This document shows positions 9,454 through 21,574 of a stretch of DNA of 23,854 nt, piece by piece. This DNA is from a virus. The translations under genes and the position numbers were made by a program. How positions within the stretch are numbered: position 1 is the first letter of the stretch; each line of letters opens with the position of its first letter. Location: positions 1-23,854 of IMG/VR virus record IMGVR_UViG_3300008217_003143, one strand, 5' to 3'. The notes beneath the pieces were generated by a model. The model saw nothing but the letters and a program-made list of their open reading frames with translations, ran no database searches and was not told the DNA's origin.

Positions 9454-9866
9454 CCAAGCAACAGCGACGCCTCAGCAAGGAGCGGCAGGCGGCGGCGTTC
9501 GTCGAAGAGCATCACGGGCCAATCGCTGACCTCTGCGAAGAGGTGGCGGTGGAACTGGGTGCTGAGCTGGTCGGCCTATCGGTTGCCGCGAAGGACGCCC
9601 GCATCGCCGCCGAGGTGGCCTACCGCCTCGACCGTCTGATCGACCTGTCGTCGTTCGGCCCACTGGCTGAGGCGCTGGATTGGTTCGGATTCTTCCTGGC
9701 CGCGCTGGCGGTGCTGGGCGTGATGCGCGCCATCGAGCGACGAGCCAAGCGCCAAGGGCTCCGAGCGGATCGACTTCGAGACCTGCTGGAGAAGCGGGGC
9801 CCACAGATGACCCGTGTTCGCCGCAGAGCGGTCGAGCGCAAGATCGCGAGGCTGACTAAGGCTTGA
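9450..9866 (+). CDS. 138-aa protein with one central TM segment, function unknown
   Basis: The ATG at 9450 is chosen over the longer frame from 9414 because it overlaps the previous stop (ATGA) and has AGGAG 6-7 bases upstream. The N-terminal half is acidic and helical (VEEHHGPIADLCEEVAVELG). A hydrophobic segment (WFGFFLAALAVLGVM) spans about 79-93, followed by a strongly basic C-terminus (RRAKRQGLRADRLRDLL). A positively charged cytoplasmic tail after one TM helix is the most likely topology. It is the last gene of the plus-strand structural and lysis run and converges with the minus-strand RHH gene, overlapping it by 11 bases at the 3' ends. Confidence 0.6.
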   Translation: MTKQQRRLSKERQAAAFVEEHHGPIADLCEEVAVELGAELVGLSVAAKDARIAAEVAYRLDRLIDLSSFGPLAEALDWFGFFLAALAVLGVMRAIERRAKRQGLRADRLRDLLEKRGPQMTRVRRRAVERKIARLTKA

Positions 9867-10035
9867 GTCGTCCGACGGCTCTACGGGCGTCTGGGCGCGT
9901 CAGGATCCGCAGATACGCGCTGGCACTGACCCCTCGCTCCGTTGCTGCCGCTTGGATGTCGTCCCACTCCCGATCAGTCATTCTGATTGTTCTAGCTCGC
10001 CTGATTAACTCGTCTGGCAGTGCTGGGCGTCCCAT
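9856..10035 (-). CDS. Small ribbon-helix-helix-like DNA-binding protein
   Basis: This is a 59-aa ORF starting MGRPALPDELIRRARTIRMT. A short basic strand (RTIRMTD, about 15-21) is followed by a helix (REWDDIQAAATERG) and a second helix after a turn (VSASAYLRIL), the order of a ribbon-helix-helix (Arc/CopG) repressor. A GAGGAG ribosome-binding site lies about 7 bases upstream inside the end of the preceding gene, whose TAG stop directly abuts this ATG. It ends 11 bases inside the convergent plus-strand gene. As the last gene of an operon with its own promoter, it could be an autoregulator. No target site is shown. Confidence 0.65.
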   Translation of the reverse strand: MGRPALPDELIRRARTIRMTDREWDDIQAAATERGVSASAYLRILTRPDARRAVGRLKP

Positions 10036-10194
10036 CTAATTCTCCTCGGCGTCTTTGATTGCGGCCAGTAGATCCGGCAGAAGCACCGTGGGATCCGTGG
10101 GCCGGTCGCTGTTGTGGTCGTCGCAATAAGCCTCAAGGGCGGCGGCAAGTTCCCTCGCCACGGTCAGAAGGTCGGGGCGTGTGGTGAGGTCCGT
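10036..10194 (-). CDS. 52-aa acidic protein, unusual start (candidate ACG)
   Basis: The plausible reading runs from the 27-bp junction repeat to TAG at 10036. The body is helical and acidic (LLTVARELAAALEAYCDDHN, LLPDLLAAIKDAEEN). The frame is open back to an ATG at 10329, but that extension would lie wholly across the zinc-finger gene in another frame and is Arg-rich with shadow-like composition. The junction places GGAGG 9 bases before an ACG codon (10194-10192) followed by Asp-Leu-Thr, exactly as at the zinc-finger gene. A +1 frameshift from the zinc-finger gene is the alternative. An internal GTG near VARELAAALE would give a shorter product. Confidence 0.45.
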   Translation of the reverse strand, partial: TDLTTRPDLLTVARELAAALEAYCDDHNSDRPTDPTVLLPDLLAAIKDAEEN

Positions 10195-10208
10195 CTCAGG
10201 CCACCTCC
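10182..10208 (-). repeat. 27-bp junction repeat, copy 1 (zinc finger to 52-aa gene)
   Basis: This matches 10444-10470 at 26 of 27 positions. Read on the minus strand it contains GGAGG, the stop codon of one gene (CCTGAG) and an ACG-GAC-CTC-ACC that would begin the next. The only difference is one base between GGAGG and the stop. Confidence 0.85.
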
Positions 10209-10456
10209 ATCTCTGCCCGTAAGCGCGCAAGCCTGACCTGCACTGGCGACCTTCGGACCCTACGCGCAACCTCAAACTCACAGTTGCCACAACGCCAAAC
10301 CGCGTCCCCTGTCTCGGCTTCGCAGTCATGGTCGCCCTCCCACCTCGGATGGAAGGTTGCGCGGCCTTCGGTGTCTGGGCAGCAGCCGGGGCAGTTCGCC
10401 CTGATCTTGTATCCGCTTCGGATCTTTCTTTTCAGGTCTGCGCTGGTGAGGTCCGT
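10196..10456 (-). CDS. Zinc-finger protein without an ATG/GTG/TTG start (candidate ACG)
   Basis: This frame encodes about 86 aa with an ordered set of metal ligands: C22, C25 and C26 (NCPGCC), H36, H43, C45 (HDC), then C56/C59 (CGNC), followed by a basic helix (ARRVRRSPVQVRLARLR). It is open only back to a TGA near 10484, and no ATG, GTG or TTG occurs before residue 70. An ACG (10456-10454) lies 9 bases after a GGAGG that overlaps the upstream gene's end. The frame sits +1 relative to that gene, so a +1 frameshift at GCC-TGA is the other option. The regular Cys/His spacing argues that this frame is coding. Confidence 0.5.
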   Translation of the reverse strand, partial: TDLTSADLKRKIRSGYKIRANCPGCCPDTEGRATFHPRWEGDHDCEAETGDAVWRCGNCEFEVARRVRRSPVQVRLARLRAEMEVA

Positions 10457-10470
10457 CTCAGGCCCCCTCC
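10444..10470 (-). repeat. 27-bp junction repeat, copy 2 (55-aa gene to zinc finger)
   Basis: Partner of 10182-10208, in direct orientation 262 bp away. It places GGAGG and TGA in the same register to the downstream frame as copy 1. The two copies precisely bracket the zinc-finger gene. Confidence 0.85.
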
Positions 10471-10625: not shown

Positions 10626-10662
10626 CGTCTCGTCCTCCGGTTTGTTTGTTCGATCTGTATGT

Positions 10663-10691
10663 AGGTTAGTCGATGCCGCTTTACCTGTAAA
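10663..10691 (-). promoter_or_regulatory. Sigma70-like promoter of the minus-strand small operon (cassette copy C)
   Basis: On the minus strand there is TTTACA (10691-10686), a 17-base spacer and TAACCT (10668-10663). An A-rich leader containing CAGATCGAACAAACAAAC follows, then GGAGGAC and ATG at 10625. Order, spacer length and leader match the promoters at 20335 and 20764. Confidence 0.65.
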
Positions 10692-10728
10692 GGTATCTCG
10701 GAAAATAAACCAGAGGGGCCCAGAACGC

Positions 10729-10765
10729 AGCAACGCCCCAGGCGATCAGGTCCTGGGGCGTTGCT
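10729..10765 (-). terminator. Perfect 14-bp hairpin after the methyltransferase gene
   Basis: Arms 10729-10742 and 10752-10765 are perfectly complementary over 14 bp with a 9-base loop. It lies about 60 bases past the methyltransferase stop and just before the cassette C promoter. No U-tract follows immediately; TTTATTTTCC comes about 22 bases later. Termination is therefore likely but not certain. The flank GGGGCGTTGCTG...TTCTGG recurs at 20715 and 21063. Confidence 0.6.
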
Positions 10766-10824
10766 CGGGTGGCGGCATCAGATCGAGGGGAGGACGGATG
10801 CCGCGCTGGGTAGTGGTGGGGAGT

Positions 10825-12033: not shown

Positions 12034-12083
12034 GGGCTGCCCCGGTCTGCGCGACGGACTGCGGATCTGTTCGTTGCGCTCAT
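12030..12083 (-). CDS. Possible 17-codon coupling ORF between PP-loop and methyltransferase genes
   Basis: An ATG overlaps the PP-loop stop (ATGA, 12083-12080) and the ORF MSATNRSAVRRADRGSP ends in a TGA that overlaps the methyltransferase GTG (GTGA). Its first six codons duplicate the start of the PP-loop gene. It may only relay ribosomes to the methyltransferase, or be a leftover of a gene insertion. A stable product is doubtful. Confidence 0.3.
   Translation of the reverse strand: MSATNRSAVRRADRGSP
12064..12082 (-). repeat. 19-bp direct repeat, copy at the end of the PP-loop gene
   Basis: An exact 19-base match to 12882-12900, reading TGAGCGCAACGAACAGATC on the minus strand. This copy contains the PP-loop stop codon and the start of the 17-codon ORF. 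Confidence 0.9.
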
Positions 12084-12901
12084 TTACACCAGGCCCCACA
12101 CCCGCCGTCAACGAAGGCAAACAGCCCCTGCTCTGCTTCCGGCTTTGTGCGCCTCGGCAGGGTGTCAAGTGGCCCGCGCCGATCAAAGGTTCGCCCGATC
12201 TCCCGCTCAAGCGCTGCAACCTCTGCCGCATGTTCTGGTCTTGCCGTCGCCAGAAGCTCGCGCTCTGCGTTGCTCCAGTGGACACACGGCTGGCAGGAGC
12301 GCCGAAGGTGTCCGCGATAGTTGATCGCGATGCCGTGCCGCTTCAAGATCGCCCGCGCATCGTCCTTGTTCTTGCCTGCCTCAAGTAGCGGAAACACTGG
12401 CCGACCCAGTGCATCGGGCCAGTGGTGCCGATACTTTGCCGCCCGCGATTCCTCGCCTGCCAGGTAGCCTATGCAATAGAGTCCGAAGGCGTCCGGATGC
12501 TTGTCCACAACGAACTCGCGCGCTCTGCGCGTAGACAGTGCGCCCCTCCAGTGTGCTGCGCCGCCCAGTTGCTCGATAGCCCACAGCATCGCAGGTTCTG
12601 CTTTCTGCTCTAGCGCGGCAGGGCACGGCATGCCAGACATGGGCAGGAATTTCCGATCTCGCCAGAGCGCCGCGATCTCTGGTCGCTGGACGGTAAGCGG
12701 TGCTCCGATCCTTTCTGCCACCTTGCGGGCGTCGTCCTCTGCGTCTGGATCGTCCCACCCCAGGTTCTGGTGTAGCGCGGCGAACGGCAGATCGGGCCAG
12801 CGCTCCCTCGCAAGCAGCGCCGCTGCGGCAGAGTCAATGCCGCCGGATAGGCCGACCAACACGATCTCATCACTCAGCGGTGATCTGTTCGTTGCGCTCA
12901 C
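12080..12901 (-). CDS. PP-loop ATP pyrophosphatase (PAPS-reductase/QueC/DndC-like superfamily)
   Basis: A GTG at 12901, overlapping the previous TGA (GTGA), gives 273 aa. The PP-loop SGGIDS lies at residues 19-24 after the strand EIVLVGL, the hallmark of enzymes that adenylate a substrate with release of pyrophosphate. Later Cys motifs include PMSGMPCP, SCQPCVHW and a terminal GGCGAWCK. Relatives include PAPS reductases, QueC and DndC, so sulfur transfer, a nucleobase modification or another nucleotidyl chemistry is possible. Pairing with a DNA methyltransferase suggests a DNA-modification role but does not prove it. The full-length frame from 13072 would run through the upstream HTH gene and is rejected. 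Confidence 0.72.
   Translation of the reverse strand: MSATNRSPLSDEIVLVGLSGGIDSAAAALLARERWPDLPFAALHQNLGWDDPDAEDDARKVAERIGAPLTVQRPEIAALWRDRKFLPMSGMPCPAALEQKAEPAMLWAIEQLGGAAHWRGALSTRRAREFVVDKHPDAFGLYCIGYLAGEESRAAKYRHHWPDALGRPVFPLLEAGKNKDDARAILKRHGIAINYRGHLRRSCQPCVHWSNAERELLATARPEHAAEVAALEREIGRTFDRRGPLDTLPRRTKPEAEQGLFAFVDGGCGAWCK
12882..12900 (-). repeat. 19-bp direct repeat, copy at the start of the PP-loop gene
   Basis: An exact 19-base match to 12064-12082, 818 bp away in the same orientation. This copy contains the stop of the upstream HTH gene and codons 1-7 of the PP-loop gene. The two copies frame the gene from its start to its stop. Confidence 0.9.
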
Positions 12902-13098
12902 GCTCGGCCCCGCTGCCCGCTCGGCGGGATCCCTGCCTTGCTTCGCCAGTATTGAACACGGGCCACGCTGACATCGAGAAGCGCCGCCAGATCTCCGTCG
13001 GACATCGACGGATAAAGGATCAAGGCATCGCCAATCGCCCAGCCGAGCGTCGGGTATCGGTGCCCGTTCCACTGCACCGGATCCGCCTTACGCCCCAT
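12898..13098 (-). CDS. Small helix-turn-helix protein
   Basis: This 66-aa protein begins MGRKADPVQWNGHRYPTLGW. A helix-turn-helix is likely at about 32-57, where DGDLAALLDVSVARVQYWRS shows a short helix, turn and recognition helix, followed by KAGIPPSGQRGRA. This pattern is like Myb/Sigma-type or resolvase-type HTH proteins. The ATG overlaps the end of the preceding 41-aa gene by 11 bases and no strong ribosome-binding site is visible, so coupled translation is likely. It ends on the PP-loop start (GTGA). It could be an operon regulator or a recombination accessory. Confidence 0.65.
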   Translation of the reverse strand: MGRKADPVQWNGHRYPTLGWAIGDALILYPSMSDGDLAALLDVSVARVQYWRSKAGIPPSGQRGRA

Positions 13099-15601: not shown

Positions 15602-16321
15602 CTAGTATGGGATTTGGTCTTCGGCCCAGGGGATAATCACCTGAGCCCCGAACGCACCGGCAGATAGCCCCTTGGCTGAAGCCTTGCCGAGATCTTCTTC
15701 TAACCTGTTTGCCGCTTGCTCTTCGAGTCCGCGCTCAATCAGGGTTTCCATCGTTCCCAGCTGAGCGGCGGATGTGCCGGCGGCTGTCTTCTCGCGGGTC
15801 GCCCACATCGCCGCAGCGTCCTCGTTGCAGGCACACAGGGCCACAAGCCGGGCCAGGCGCTCGGCGTGACCGGCGGGAGGCTTGGGTGCCGGCGCTGGCT
15901 CGGCTCTGACGGCTGACGGCCTGGCGGAGTCGATCTCCTCGTCGTCAGCAGCCACCGCGAGCACGAGACCCCGAAGCCATCGAGCGAGCCCCGATGTGAT
16001 GGACGCTTGCGCGCTCTTGCTGGCGTCCCTTCCCCGGGTCGGGGCAATGGGCAAATCAAACGACGCCCGCAGCTCCTCGCCGCTTTCCGGATGGGCCAAA
16101 AGCACGTGAAGCCTTGACACCTGGGAGCCCGCGACCTCGACCACCTCGTGACCGGTCGAGAGCGCCAGCAGCCCGCAGCCAGCAAGGACCGGACGGATCG
16201 CCCGAACTGCTCCAGCTGCGGTGATGTATGAATAGCCCGATCCGAAGTCGGCGAAGCCGTCTTTTTCCAGCGCGGGCACCTGATCTTGAGCGGCGCGGAG
16301 CGCCTGATATATATGCTTCAA
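15602..16321 (-). CDS. erf: ERF-family single-strand annealing protein
   Basis: This 239-aa protein begins at a TTG with AGGAG 8 bases upstream. The N-terminal part has FADFGSGYSYITAAGAVRAI and the core block KSAQASITSGLARWLRGLVL, which matches the conserved ERF region, then an Ala/Pro linker and a helical C-terminal part. It ends PWAEDQIPY, an acidic-hydrophobic tail like that of SSB proteins. ERF proteins pair complementary strands during phage recombination and genome circularisation. It is the first gene of the long minus-strand operon, and a candidate TTGACA promoter lies about 70 bases upstream, next to the divergent regulator. Confidence 0.82.
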   Translation of the reverse strand: MKHIYQALRAAQDQVPALEKDGFADFGSGYSYITAAGAVRAIRPVLAGCGLLALSTGHEVVEVAGSQVSRLHVLLAHPESGEELRASFDLPIAPTRGRDASKSAQASITSGLARWLRGLVLAVAADDEEIDSARPSAVRAEPAPAPKPPAGHAERLARLVALCACNEDAAAMWATREKTAAGTSAAQLGTMETLIERGLEEQAANRLEEDLGKASAKGLSAGAFGAQVIIPWAEDQIPY

Positions 16322-20317: not shown

Positions 20318-20390
20318 TTATTTTCCGCAATACGTTGACAGGTTAATAGGCGTCGGTTTATCCTACTAACAGATCGAGCGAACAAACAAC
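20318..20390 (+). repeat. Promoter-leader repeat, copy A
   Basis: Two blocks match copy B exactly: 25 bases (20318-20342 = 20747-20771) around TTTTCCGCAATACGTTGACA, and 28 bases (20363-20390 = 20791-20818) covering the leader. The 20 bases between, mostly promoter spacer and -10, differ. Copy C on the minus strand near 10630-10705 is a diverged relative. Confidence 0.9.
20335..20363 (+). promoter_or_regulatory. Sigma70-like promoter (cassette copy A)
   Basis: TTGACA (20335-20340), a 17-base spacer and TTATCC (20358-20363). The leader AACAGATCGAGCGAACAAAC leads to GGAGG (20392-20396), 8 bases before the ATG at 20405. Confidence 0.7.
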
Positions 20391-20404
20391 CGGAGGACAA
20401 GACA

Positions 20405-20686
20405 ATGCTTGCTAGCTTTTATTTTGAAGACGGATCTCCCGACTATCACGGCACAGCAGCGGCAGACGGCTATTGCTGTGTGTCTTCATGGGCGGGTGGC
20501 GATTGCGGATGCAACGGGACGGACGACTACTACGCCGGGATGGCCCAGGCGTGGACCCAGGAGATGGCTGACAACCTGGGGATCTCGTTCGGAGAGGCGG
20601 AAGCCAGGGTTGCCCGACGATCCCTGCTGCCAGTTGTCACCGCGCCACCACGATCTTGTCCTGATTGTGAGGCCCTCCCCTTCTAA
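20405..20686 (+). CDS. 93-aa cysteine-containing protein of cassette A, function unknown
   Basis: The ATG lies 8 bases after GGAGG in the shared leader. The protein starts MLASFYFEDGSPDYHGTAAA. It has Cys24/25 (YCCVSS), Cys34/36 (DCGCNG) and a late C85-P-D-C88 pair, so one zinc or disulfide site is possible. The middle is an acidic helix (MAQAWTQEMADNLGISFGEA). There is no signal peptide or clear TM helix. I recognise no family. The stop is directly followed by CCCACCAACCAACC and a hairpin, the same ending as the next small gene. Its own promoter, hairpin and unrelated coding sequence suggest an independently expressed accessory gene. Confidence 0.65.
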   Translation: MLASFYFEDGSPDYHGTAAADGYCCVSSWAGGDCGCNGTDDYYAGMAQAWTQEMADNLGISFGEAEARVARRSLLPVVTAPPRSCPDCEALPF

Positions 20687-20704
20687 CCCACCAACCAACC
20701 ACAG

Positions 20705-20744
20705 CGCCCCCGAGGGGGCGTTGCTGGTTCTGGGACTCTTTTTT
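20705..20744 (+). terminator. GC-rich hairpin with distal T-run after cassette A gene
   Basis: CGCCCCC/GGGGGCG at 20705-20720 forms a short strong stem. GGGGCGTTGCTGGTTCTGG follows at 20715-20733 and TTTTTT at 20739-20744. The T-run is about 18 bases past the stem, so this is an atypical terminator. The same stem flank recurs at 21063 and, inverted, at 10719-10739. Confidence 0.5.
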
Positions 20745-20746
20745 GT

Positions 20747-20818
20747 TTATTTTCCGCAATACGTTGACAGGGTAAACCGGGGCCTGTAATCTACTAACAG
20801 ATCGAGCGAACAAACAAC
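20747..20818 (+). repeat. Promoter-leader repeat, copy B
   Basis: Partner of 20318-20390, about 429 bp away in direct orientation. The two exact blocks flank a promoter spacer that differs in sequence but not in length. Confidence 0.9.
20764..20792 (+). promoter_or_regulatory. Sigma70-like promoter (cassette copy B)
   Basis: TTGACA (20764-20769), a 17-base spacer and TAATCT (20787-20792), then the shared leader and GGAGG (20820-20824) 8 bases before the ATG at 20833. Confidence 0.7.
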
Positions 20819-20832
20819 TGGAGGACAGTACG

Positions 20833-21033
20833 ATGACCAGCAGCGAACGACTTTTTGCCGATATGATGGAACGAGCGATTGTCACAATCGAATCATGGTT
20901 GGCCCCGTCGATGGGCGAAGACGCGATCACAGTTCAAGAGTCGATCCAACTCTGGCTCAGGAGCACCACCGCCGGCCCCCGGGTCCGCTGCGCTGTATAC
21001 AGGCACTACGAGGGCCTTGGTTACTCCCTCTAG
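20833..21033 (+). CDS. 66-aa protein of cassette B, function unknown
   Basis: The ATG follows the shared leader and GGAGG. The protein starts MTSSERLFADMMERAIVTIE and is mostly helical with an amphipathic first half (LFADMMERAIVTIESWL). It has a basic aromatic end (RVRCAVYRHYEGLGYSL) and a single Cys. It shows no similarity by eye to the cassette A or cassette C proteins, although the DNA around all three is alike. CCCACCAACCAACC starts directly after the TAG, then a hairpin. A small binding or anti-host protein is conceivable from this arrangement, but the sequence does not show it. Confidence 0.62.
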   Translation: MTSSERLFADMMERAIVTIESWLAPSMGEDAITVQESIQLWLRSTTAGPRVRCAVYRHYEGLGYSL

Positions 21034-21052
21034 CCCACCAACCAACCCGCTT

Positions 21053-21068
21053 CGCCCCTTCGGGGGCG
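21053..21068 (+). terminator. UUCG-loop hairpin after cassette B gene
   Basis: CGCCCC (21053-21058), loop TTCG, GGGGCG (21063-21068): a 6-bp GC stem closed by a very stable tetraloop. It is followed by GGGGCGTTGCTGGTTCTGG (21063-21081), identical to the flank after cassette A. No T-run follows, so it may slow or protect RNA rather than terminate. Confidence 0.45.
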
Positions 21069-21078
21069 TTGCTGGTTC

Positions 21079-21106
21079 TGGACATCGACGGCGGGCTGGT
21101 TAATCT
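21079..21106 (+). promoter_or_regulatory. Possible promoter giving a leaderless terminase small-subunit mRNA
   Basis: TGGACA (21079-21084), a 16-base spacer and TAATCT (21101-21106), then 6 bases to the ATG at 21113. The geometry equals that of the regulator gene at 16415. TAATCT is also the -10 of cassette B. GAGG directly before the ATG is too close to be a normal ribosome-binding site. Confidence 0.35.
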
Positions 21107-21112
21107 AGAGGC

Positions 21113-21574
21113 ATGGCTGACTGGGTACACGGAACAAAGCAACAAAAGGAGCTGGCGGTTGCCGAGCTGGCACGGGGCGCGACTTACCGAGCGGCAGCCA
21201 GGCGGGCCGGGATCAAGTCAGGATCGACCGTCTGGCGCTGGGTCAATAATGACGAGACCTACAGGCACGAGCTGCAACAGGCAAAGCGAGCAGCGCTAGC
21301 TTCAGCCGCCGAGCTGGTCCTTCTGGCTGGCAAAGAAATCAAGGACCGGCTGGAAGACGACGAGAGACGCGAAGCCATGAGCGTCGGCGACCTCAACAAG
21401 ATCCACGGGACGGCGACTGACAAGATCATCCATGCCGCAGCCATCGAGGCAGAGCAAGGGATGGACGAGTCGGCAACGATGGACACTGAAGGGATGCTGG
21501 ACGCCCTGGCCGAGCGGCTGACGCCTGAGCACCTGGCGGCGCTTCAAGCCCGCATGGCAGACCTTCGGCATTGA
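21113..21574 (+). CDS. terS: Terminase small subunit
   Basis: This 153-aa protein starts MADWVHGTKQQKELAVAELA. An N-terminal helix-turn-helix lies at about 22-45 (ATYRAAARRAGIKSGSTVWR), followed by long oligomerisation helices rich in Ala, Glu and Lys and an acidic C-terminal region (MLDALAERLTPEHLAALQAR). Position directly before the large terminase, size and HTH-plus-helix layout match small terminases, which recognise the packaging site as a ring and stimulate the large subunit. It ends on a TTGA overlap with the large-subunit start. Confidence 0.78.
   Translation: MADWVHGTKQQKELAVAELARGATYRAAARRAGIKSGSTVWRWVNNDETYRHELQQAKRAALASAAELVLLAGKEIKDRLEDDERREAMSVGDLNKIHGTATDKIIHAAAIEAEQGMDESATMDTEGMLDALAERLTPEHLAALQARMADLRH

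Follow-up and report, generated by a model that had tools for sequence, protein, structure and literature searches.

At two fixed sites in an IMG/VR virus record of 23,854 bp (the window, meaning the whole stretch of DNA analysed) and in related uncultured phages, a conserved set of regulatory sequences encloses small open reading frames (ORFs) that differ from copy to copy, and the units that have been exchanged are bounded by the conserved blocks. The three copies in the window, A and B beside the gene for the terminase small subunit (terS) and C on the other strand, are quite probably exchangeable expression cassettes. The cassette feature itself is real and well supported, and the overall interpretation in the initial annotation, a single cassette reused for three unrelated genes, is supported as well; common control of these genes and action of their products on the host, which it also proposed, are possible. 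The kit would comprise a promoter, a short leader that has a strong ribosome-binding site (RBS) and runs up to the start codon, and, from the stop codon onward, a terminator or linker. Host RNA polymerase would read the promoters, and the standard leader would express each ORF whatever its neighbours.

Table 1. Cassette features and bordering genes in the window.
Feature	Position	Strand	Remarks
Ribbon-helix-helix (NikA/Arc-like) gene	9856..10035	-	Right border of C site; also in G001
C operon gene, family F1 coding region	10036..10207	-	Start codon uncertain
Cargo ORF C, 55 aa	10458..10625	-	ORFan
Leader C	10626..10662	-	SD GGAGGAC
Predicted promoter C	10663..10708	-	-35 TTTACA 10691-10686; -10 TAACCT 10668-10663; spacer 17
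Hairpin with GGCGTTGCTGCGTTCTGG	10719..10768	-	Between methylase gene and promoter C
ERF-like single-strand annealing protein	15602..16321	-	Candidate recombinase for swaps
Predicted promoter A with conserved upstream block	20318..20364	+	-35 TTGACA 20335-20340; -10 TATCCT 20359-20364; spacer 18
Leader A	20365..20404	+	A-rich, unstructured; SD GGAGGAC 20392-20398
Cargo ORF A, 93 aa	20405..20686	+	ORFan
Putative terminator A	20687..20744	+	Stop-abutting CCCACCAACCAACC, hairpin, GTTGCTGGTTCTGG, distant T6
Predicted promoter B	20747..20792	+	-35 TTGACA 20764-20769; -10 TAATCT 20787-20792; spacer 17
Leader B	20793..20832	+	SD GGAGGAC
Cargo ORF B, 66 aa	20833..21033	+	ORFan, predicted three-helix bundle
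Stop-abutting block and hairpin B	21034..21081	+	Common to relatives
Putative terS promoter, TGGACA-16-TAATCT	21079..21106	+	Overlaps end of terminator block B; read from sequence, conserved in relatives
Terminase small subunit (terS)	21113..21574	+	Right border of terS-side site

The three promoter-leader copies lie where the initial annotation had placed them, as the TTATTTTCCGNNATACNTTNACAGG pattern has matches at A, B and C and nowhere else (0 expected), and copy C is 75% identical to copy B (E 1.7e-15). The -35 box described as shared is common to A and B, with TTTACA at C, and the spacer described as exactly 17 bases has that length in B and C and 18 bases in A when the homologous -10 boxes are aligned. 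From sequence and folding, the promoters appear sigma70-like and the Shine-Dalgarno (SD) sequences strong. The reported exact A/B blocks of 28 nt (20363/20791) and 25 nt (20318/20747) are present and beyond chance: no exact direct repeat in the window is longer than the former, and in 100 simulated sequences the longest measured 13-18 nt. Further exact blocks of 20 nt (20714/21062) and 14 nt (20687/21034) were found, the leaders of A and B are 91% identical across 45 nt, and the post-stop block recurs as described, with CCCACCAACCAACC directly 3′ of both stop codons.

The hairpins in the window fold at about -25 to -30 kcal/mol (-27.6 kcal/mol for terminator A). A scan for intrinsic terminators gave those of A and B no score because A has its T run at a distance and B has none; termination at both hairpins is nevertheless likely. 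Block B overlaps the likely terS promoter and thus forms a composite terminator-promoter. In this promoter (21079-21113), just 6 nt separate the -10 box from the ATG of terS, whose mRNA may therefore be leaderless.

Cassette C has no downstream CCCACCAACCAACC terminator and heads a small operon whose last gene encodes the ribbon-helix-helix protein. The variant of the hairpin flank noticed upstream of promoter C was confirmed as GGCGTTGCTGCGTTCTGG at 10737-10720 (-). Within the operon, a 27-nt block, GGAGG(G/T)GGCCTGAGACGGACCTCACCA, stands at two successive ORF ends (10444-10470 and 10182-10208, - strand), and the ORFs after these blocks continue in the +1 frame, where ATG, GTG and TTG starts are lacking; they may begin at an ACG, or +1 frameshifting may occur at GCC-UGA past an SD-like sequence.

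Proteins A, B and C are mutually unrelated, as had been claimed, and have no match in Pfam, PHROGs or phage records. The AlphaFold model of A is poor (mean pLDDT 46), and that of B is a confident three-helix bundle (mean pLDDT 87) for which Foldseek gave no significant match. An old tandem duplication, in which the genes diverged beyond recognition and the flanks stayed unchanged, would account for the tandem order of A and B and for flanks that are 91-100% identical; it is highly improbable, however, as the 93-aa and 66-aa ORFs have no detectable DNA or protein similarity to each other and the relatives show whole ORFs replaced rather than diverged.

Besides the cassettes, the window encodes both terminase subunits, a long coiled-coil protein that by eye is tape-measure-like, a DNA methylase, RusA, a Gp157-like protein, a helicase and a Prim-Pol/VapE protein, with weak matches to tail-like genes and an M15-like peptidase. 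The best matches of the terminase large subunit (terL) to other phages are weak, at about 23-27% identity. The protein encoded at 12080-13072 (-) has weak NAD-synthase/asparagine-synthase-type matches and could be a phage modification enzyme that binds nucleotides.

Three relatives, L004-L006, were found by a terminase scan alone; their terL is 68-73% identical to that of the window, with only about 40% agreement at fourfold-degenerate sites. In all three, the DNA leading up to terS closes with GGGCGTTGCTGGTTCTGGACATCG, an exact match to window copy B, and the small ORFs upstream of this terminator flank are different, which bears out the claim that control DNA is conserved while the cargo changes. 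Seven such ORFs are present in L004, several of them separated by near-identical linkers, e.g. TAACCACCCACGGCCCGCCGGAGCCTATCCGGCAGGAGGATGAGACAATG. Scans with the terminator flank and the L004-type linker gave further relatives (terL 50-55% identical where present), which, having been found via the blocks, show what lies between blocks and not how frequent blocks are. These again carry different ORFs between the same few blocks and recurring leaders, including one direct swap and one recently moved ORF. Other terL relatives of similar distance (L110-L113, L115 and L117) are without the blocks, so the system belongs to part of the phage group.

Of the two blocks that the initial annotation expected in related phages, the post-stop flank is there, but the window promoter-leader was found in no other contig; the leaders of the relatives differ and follow the same plan, and swapping in the window is therefore inferred from A versus B. 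When the window promoters are compared with those of the relatives, homology is suggestive in the case of B and weaker in that of C; most comparisons with A show none. Searches with the blocks in phage and plasmid records gave nothing convincing, and an Rfam search gave nothing. Five viral matches to the window-leader pattern were judged to be chance, as homologous genes were lacking, and so were four matches of the hairpin-linker in bacterial and archaeal genomes by their context, so no host was assigned from them. A leader hairpin was also considered as a part of the kit, since the leader types of the relatives can be drawn with a hairpin before the SD; it was dropped because most single leaders of the relatives lack significance against shuffles (z -0.5 to -3.3) and those of the window are unstructured.

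The arrays are highly regular. Across 14 sites in 12 contigs, the window included, 53 ORFs in 44 families were called, and removal of two spurious calls in L005 left 51 ORFs in about 42 families. One of eight recurring leader types (three being the window copies) lies upstream of 44 of the 51, and a recurring block begins no more than 6 nt after the stop codon of 36. In the 12 arrays outside the window, 59% of alignment ends lie at most 10 nt from a start or stop codon, as against 11% of random positions; sharing extends to 4.9 of 11 other arrays for intergenic bases and to 0.63 for ORF bases. Blocks that fit start and stop codons exactly, together with many different cargos, would suit an integron- or transposon-like system in which a dedicated integrase moves cassettes site-specifically. 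Such a system can scarcely be credited, as single arrays use several unrelated leaders and, in a record that is possibly a fragment, there is no tyrosine-recombinase match, which sets these units apart from integron cassettes, and no integrase or transposase among the scanned window proteins.

Many small variable phage genes encode factors for host takeover or counter-defence. Pfam, PHROGs and PADLOC searches with 47 cargo proteins matched no defence model and returned hardly anything besides ribbon-helix-helix proteins. For cargo genes shared by several phages, dN is lower than dS in every computed pair, which marks them as real genes (A, B and C are without relatives and outside this comparison). 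The cargo would most likely consist of dispensable proteins that interact with the host or with defence systems.

Exchange of ORFs between the blocks is seen directly in L116 and L118, a pair with 96% identity across 6.4 kb. The promoter and the initial half of the leader agree in the two phages, as do the linker that comes next, the gene after it and the terminator, but the first ORF codes for 63 aa in one phage and for an unrelated protein of 80 aa in the other. In L004 and L098, the first cassette ORF is 98% identical at the DNA level (dS 0.06), whereas the terL proteins are 56%, the promoter region 69% and the replication gene 87% identical; an ORF nearly identical amid diverged neighbours indicates that the leader-ORF-linker unit was passed on recently.

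The layout of the window recurs in relatives. L095 has two tandem promoter-ORF-terminator units in the layout of A and B, with other genes. In G001 (33.9 kb; L092, L105, L131), one array ends in the terS-side terminator block and a second lies between a methyltransferase-like gene and a ribbon-helix-helix gene, so that its array sites correspond to the A/B and C sites of the window. The C operon of the window contains family F1, which is also cargo of the terS-side arrays of L004, L097, L099 and L103, and one cargo family thus occurs at both sites. Past the terminator block, L118 departs from L116 by roughly 1.6 kb inserted ahead of terS. Judging by their sequences, ParB-like and other larger genes directly follow the terminator block in L118 and L098, and L116 and L103 are without them; the block therefore also borders bigger insertions.

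Identical flanks of 25-45 nt would suffice for an ORF swap by short-homology recombination, and the agent may be the phage annealing protein ERF, encoded by both the window and G001, or host RecA. Rad52-like phage recombinases, among them Erf of phage D3, recombine sequences whose homology is short or diverged (PMC3945230). It is conceivable, with a chance somewhat short of even, that the linkers form a platform dedicated to exchange. They would be a set of interchangeable standard parts that recombination between phages keeps alike, and through them a phage lineage would continually load and discard ORFan genes at two fixed sites with guaranteed expression. Counting against exchange, breakpoints in conserved DNA would also be expected if the blocks served expression only. 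In a shared regulon, a regulator or the ribosome would keep the leaders and terminators, and the ORFs would change by illegitimate recombination in which the blocks are uninvolved. GTRGATAC-like repeats, seen by eye on both sides of the -35 box in promoters of relatives (L006:440-480, L101:310-360, L118:1350-1420), are operator-like and may be bound by such a shared regulator, and the SAS of cluster K mycobacteriophages, conserved before unrelated genes, has a proposed role in expression (PMC3203893). A regulon alone is rather unlikely, however, given that breakpoints lie inside or at the edge of blocks and that the unit moved between L004 and L098 starts in the leader and stops in the linker, with the upstream promoter only 69% identical.

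The cassettes may be compared with several known systems. Mobile regulatory cassettes termed PeSLs have reportedly been described in T4-type phages (Arbiol 2010, Comeau 2014). In one account, the PeSL is a conserved intergenic composite of stem-loop terminator and promoter with gene shuffling around it (PMC4503421). The A-terminator/B-promoter and B-terminator/terS-promoter junctions have this composite layout in their sequence, and shuffling between related phages is likewise seen among the relatives. Compared with PeSLs, the phages here are small, tape-measure-bearing and ERF-encoding, and the sequences are others; the kit adds an RBS leader reaching the start codon and blocks that begin at the stop codon; promoter-less linkers are also used, and the arrays occupy two fixed sites. 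The window phage is not T4-type, as its Prim-Pol/VapE, ERF and RusA genes and weak terL matches indicate.

The SAS/ESAS of cluster K mycobacteriophages is a conserved RBS-bearing sequence before the start codons of different gene families, in some cases with an upstream inverted repeat (Pope 2011; PMC3203893). Here, too, a conserved RBS-bearing sequence lies a few nucleotides before the start codons of unrelated genes, but whole promoters and terminators are re-used and exchange of ORFs between blocks is seen directly. The 13-bp SAS, GGGATAGGAGCCC, has one match in the window, with 2 mismatches, at position 199, which is chance level. The cassettes work like PeSLs with an SAS start-codon module added and are members of neither group, the phages and sequences being others.

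A lambdoid moron is a gene added between conserved phage genes, with a promoter and a terminator of its own. A and B may fit this general idea. Upstream of terS in L004-L006 both genes are missing between the same neighbours; in the window, promoter-like and hairpin sequences surround each gene, the hairpins being those that the terminator scan left unscored. Morons, however, generally each have their own control DNA, whereas one kit is re-used here for unrelated tandem genes. ORFanage regions, e.g. in S-PM2, are likewise variable islands of ORFan genes, but few PeSLs are reported in them and a role for these is argued against (PMC4503421); the standard flanking kit seen here was not found there.

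Fixed sockets would let these phages try new genes quickly. The system bears on the origin of phage ORFan genes and on how a gained gene is expressed immediately. Exchange sites recognisable by sequence would allow cargo to be collected from metagenomes by reading between blocks, and the role of short flanking homology and annealing proteins becomes directly testable. As candidates for factors of host takeover or counter-defence, the cargo proteins are a natural choice. In a more distant terminase relative (L007:8330-8670), small reverse-strand genes precede terS together with a repeat of its own, CTTCCGGGGTGTACCCTGGCGGC, which occurs twice, and this is possibly the same arrangement with other sequences.
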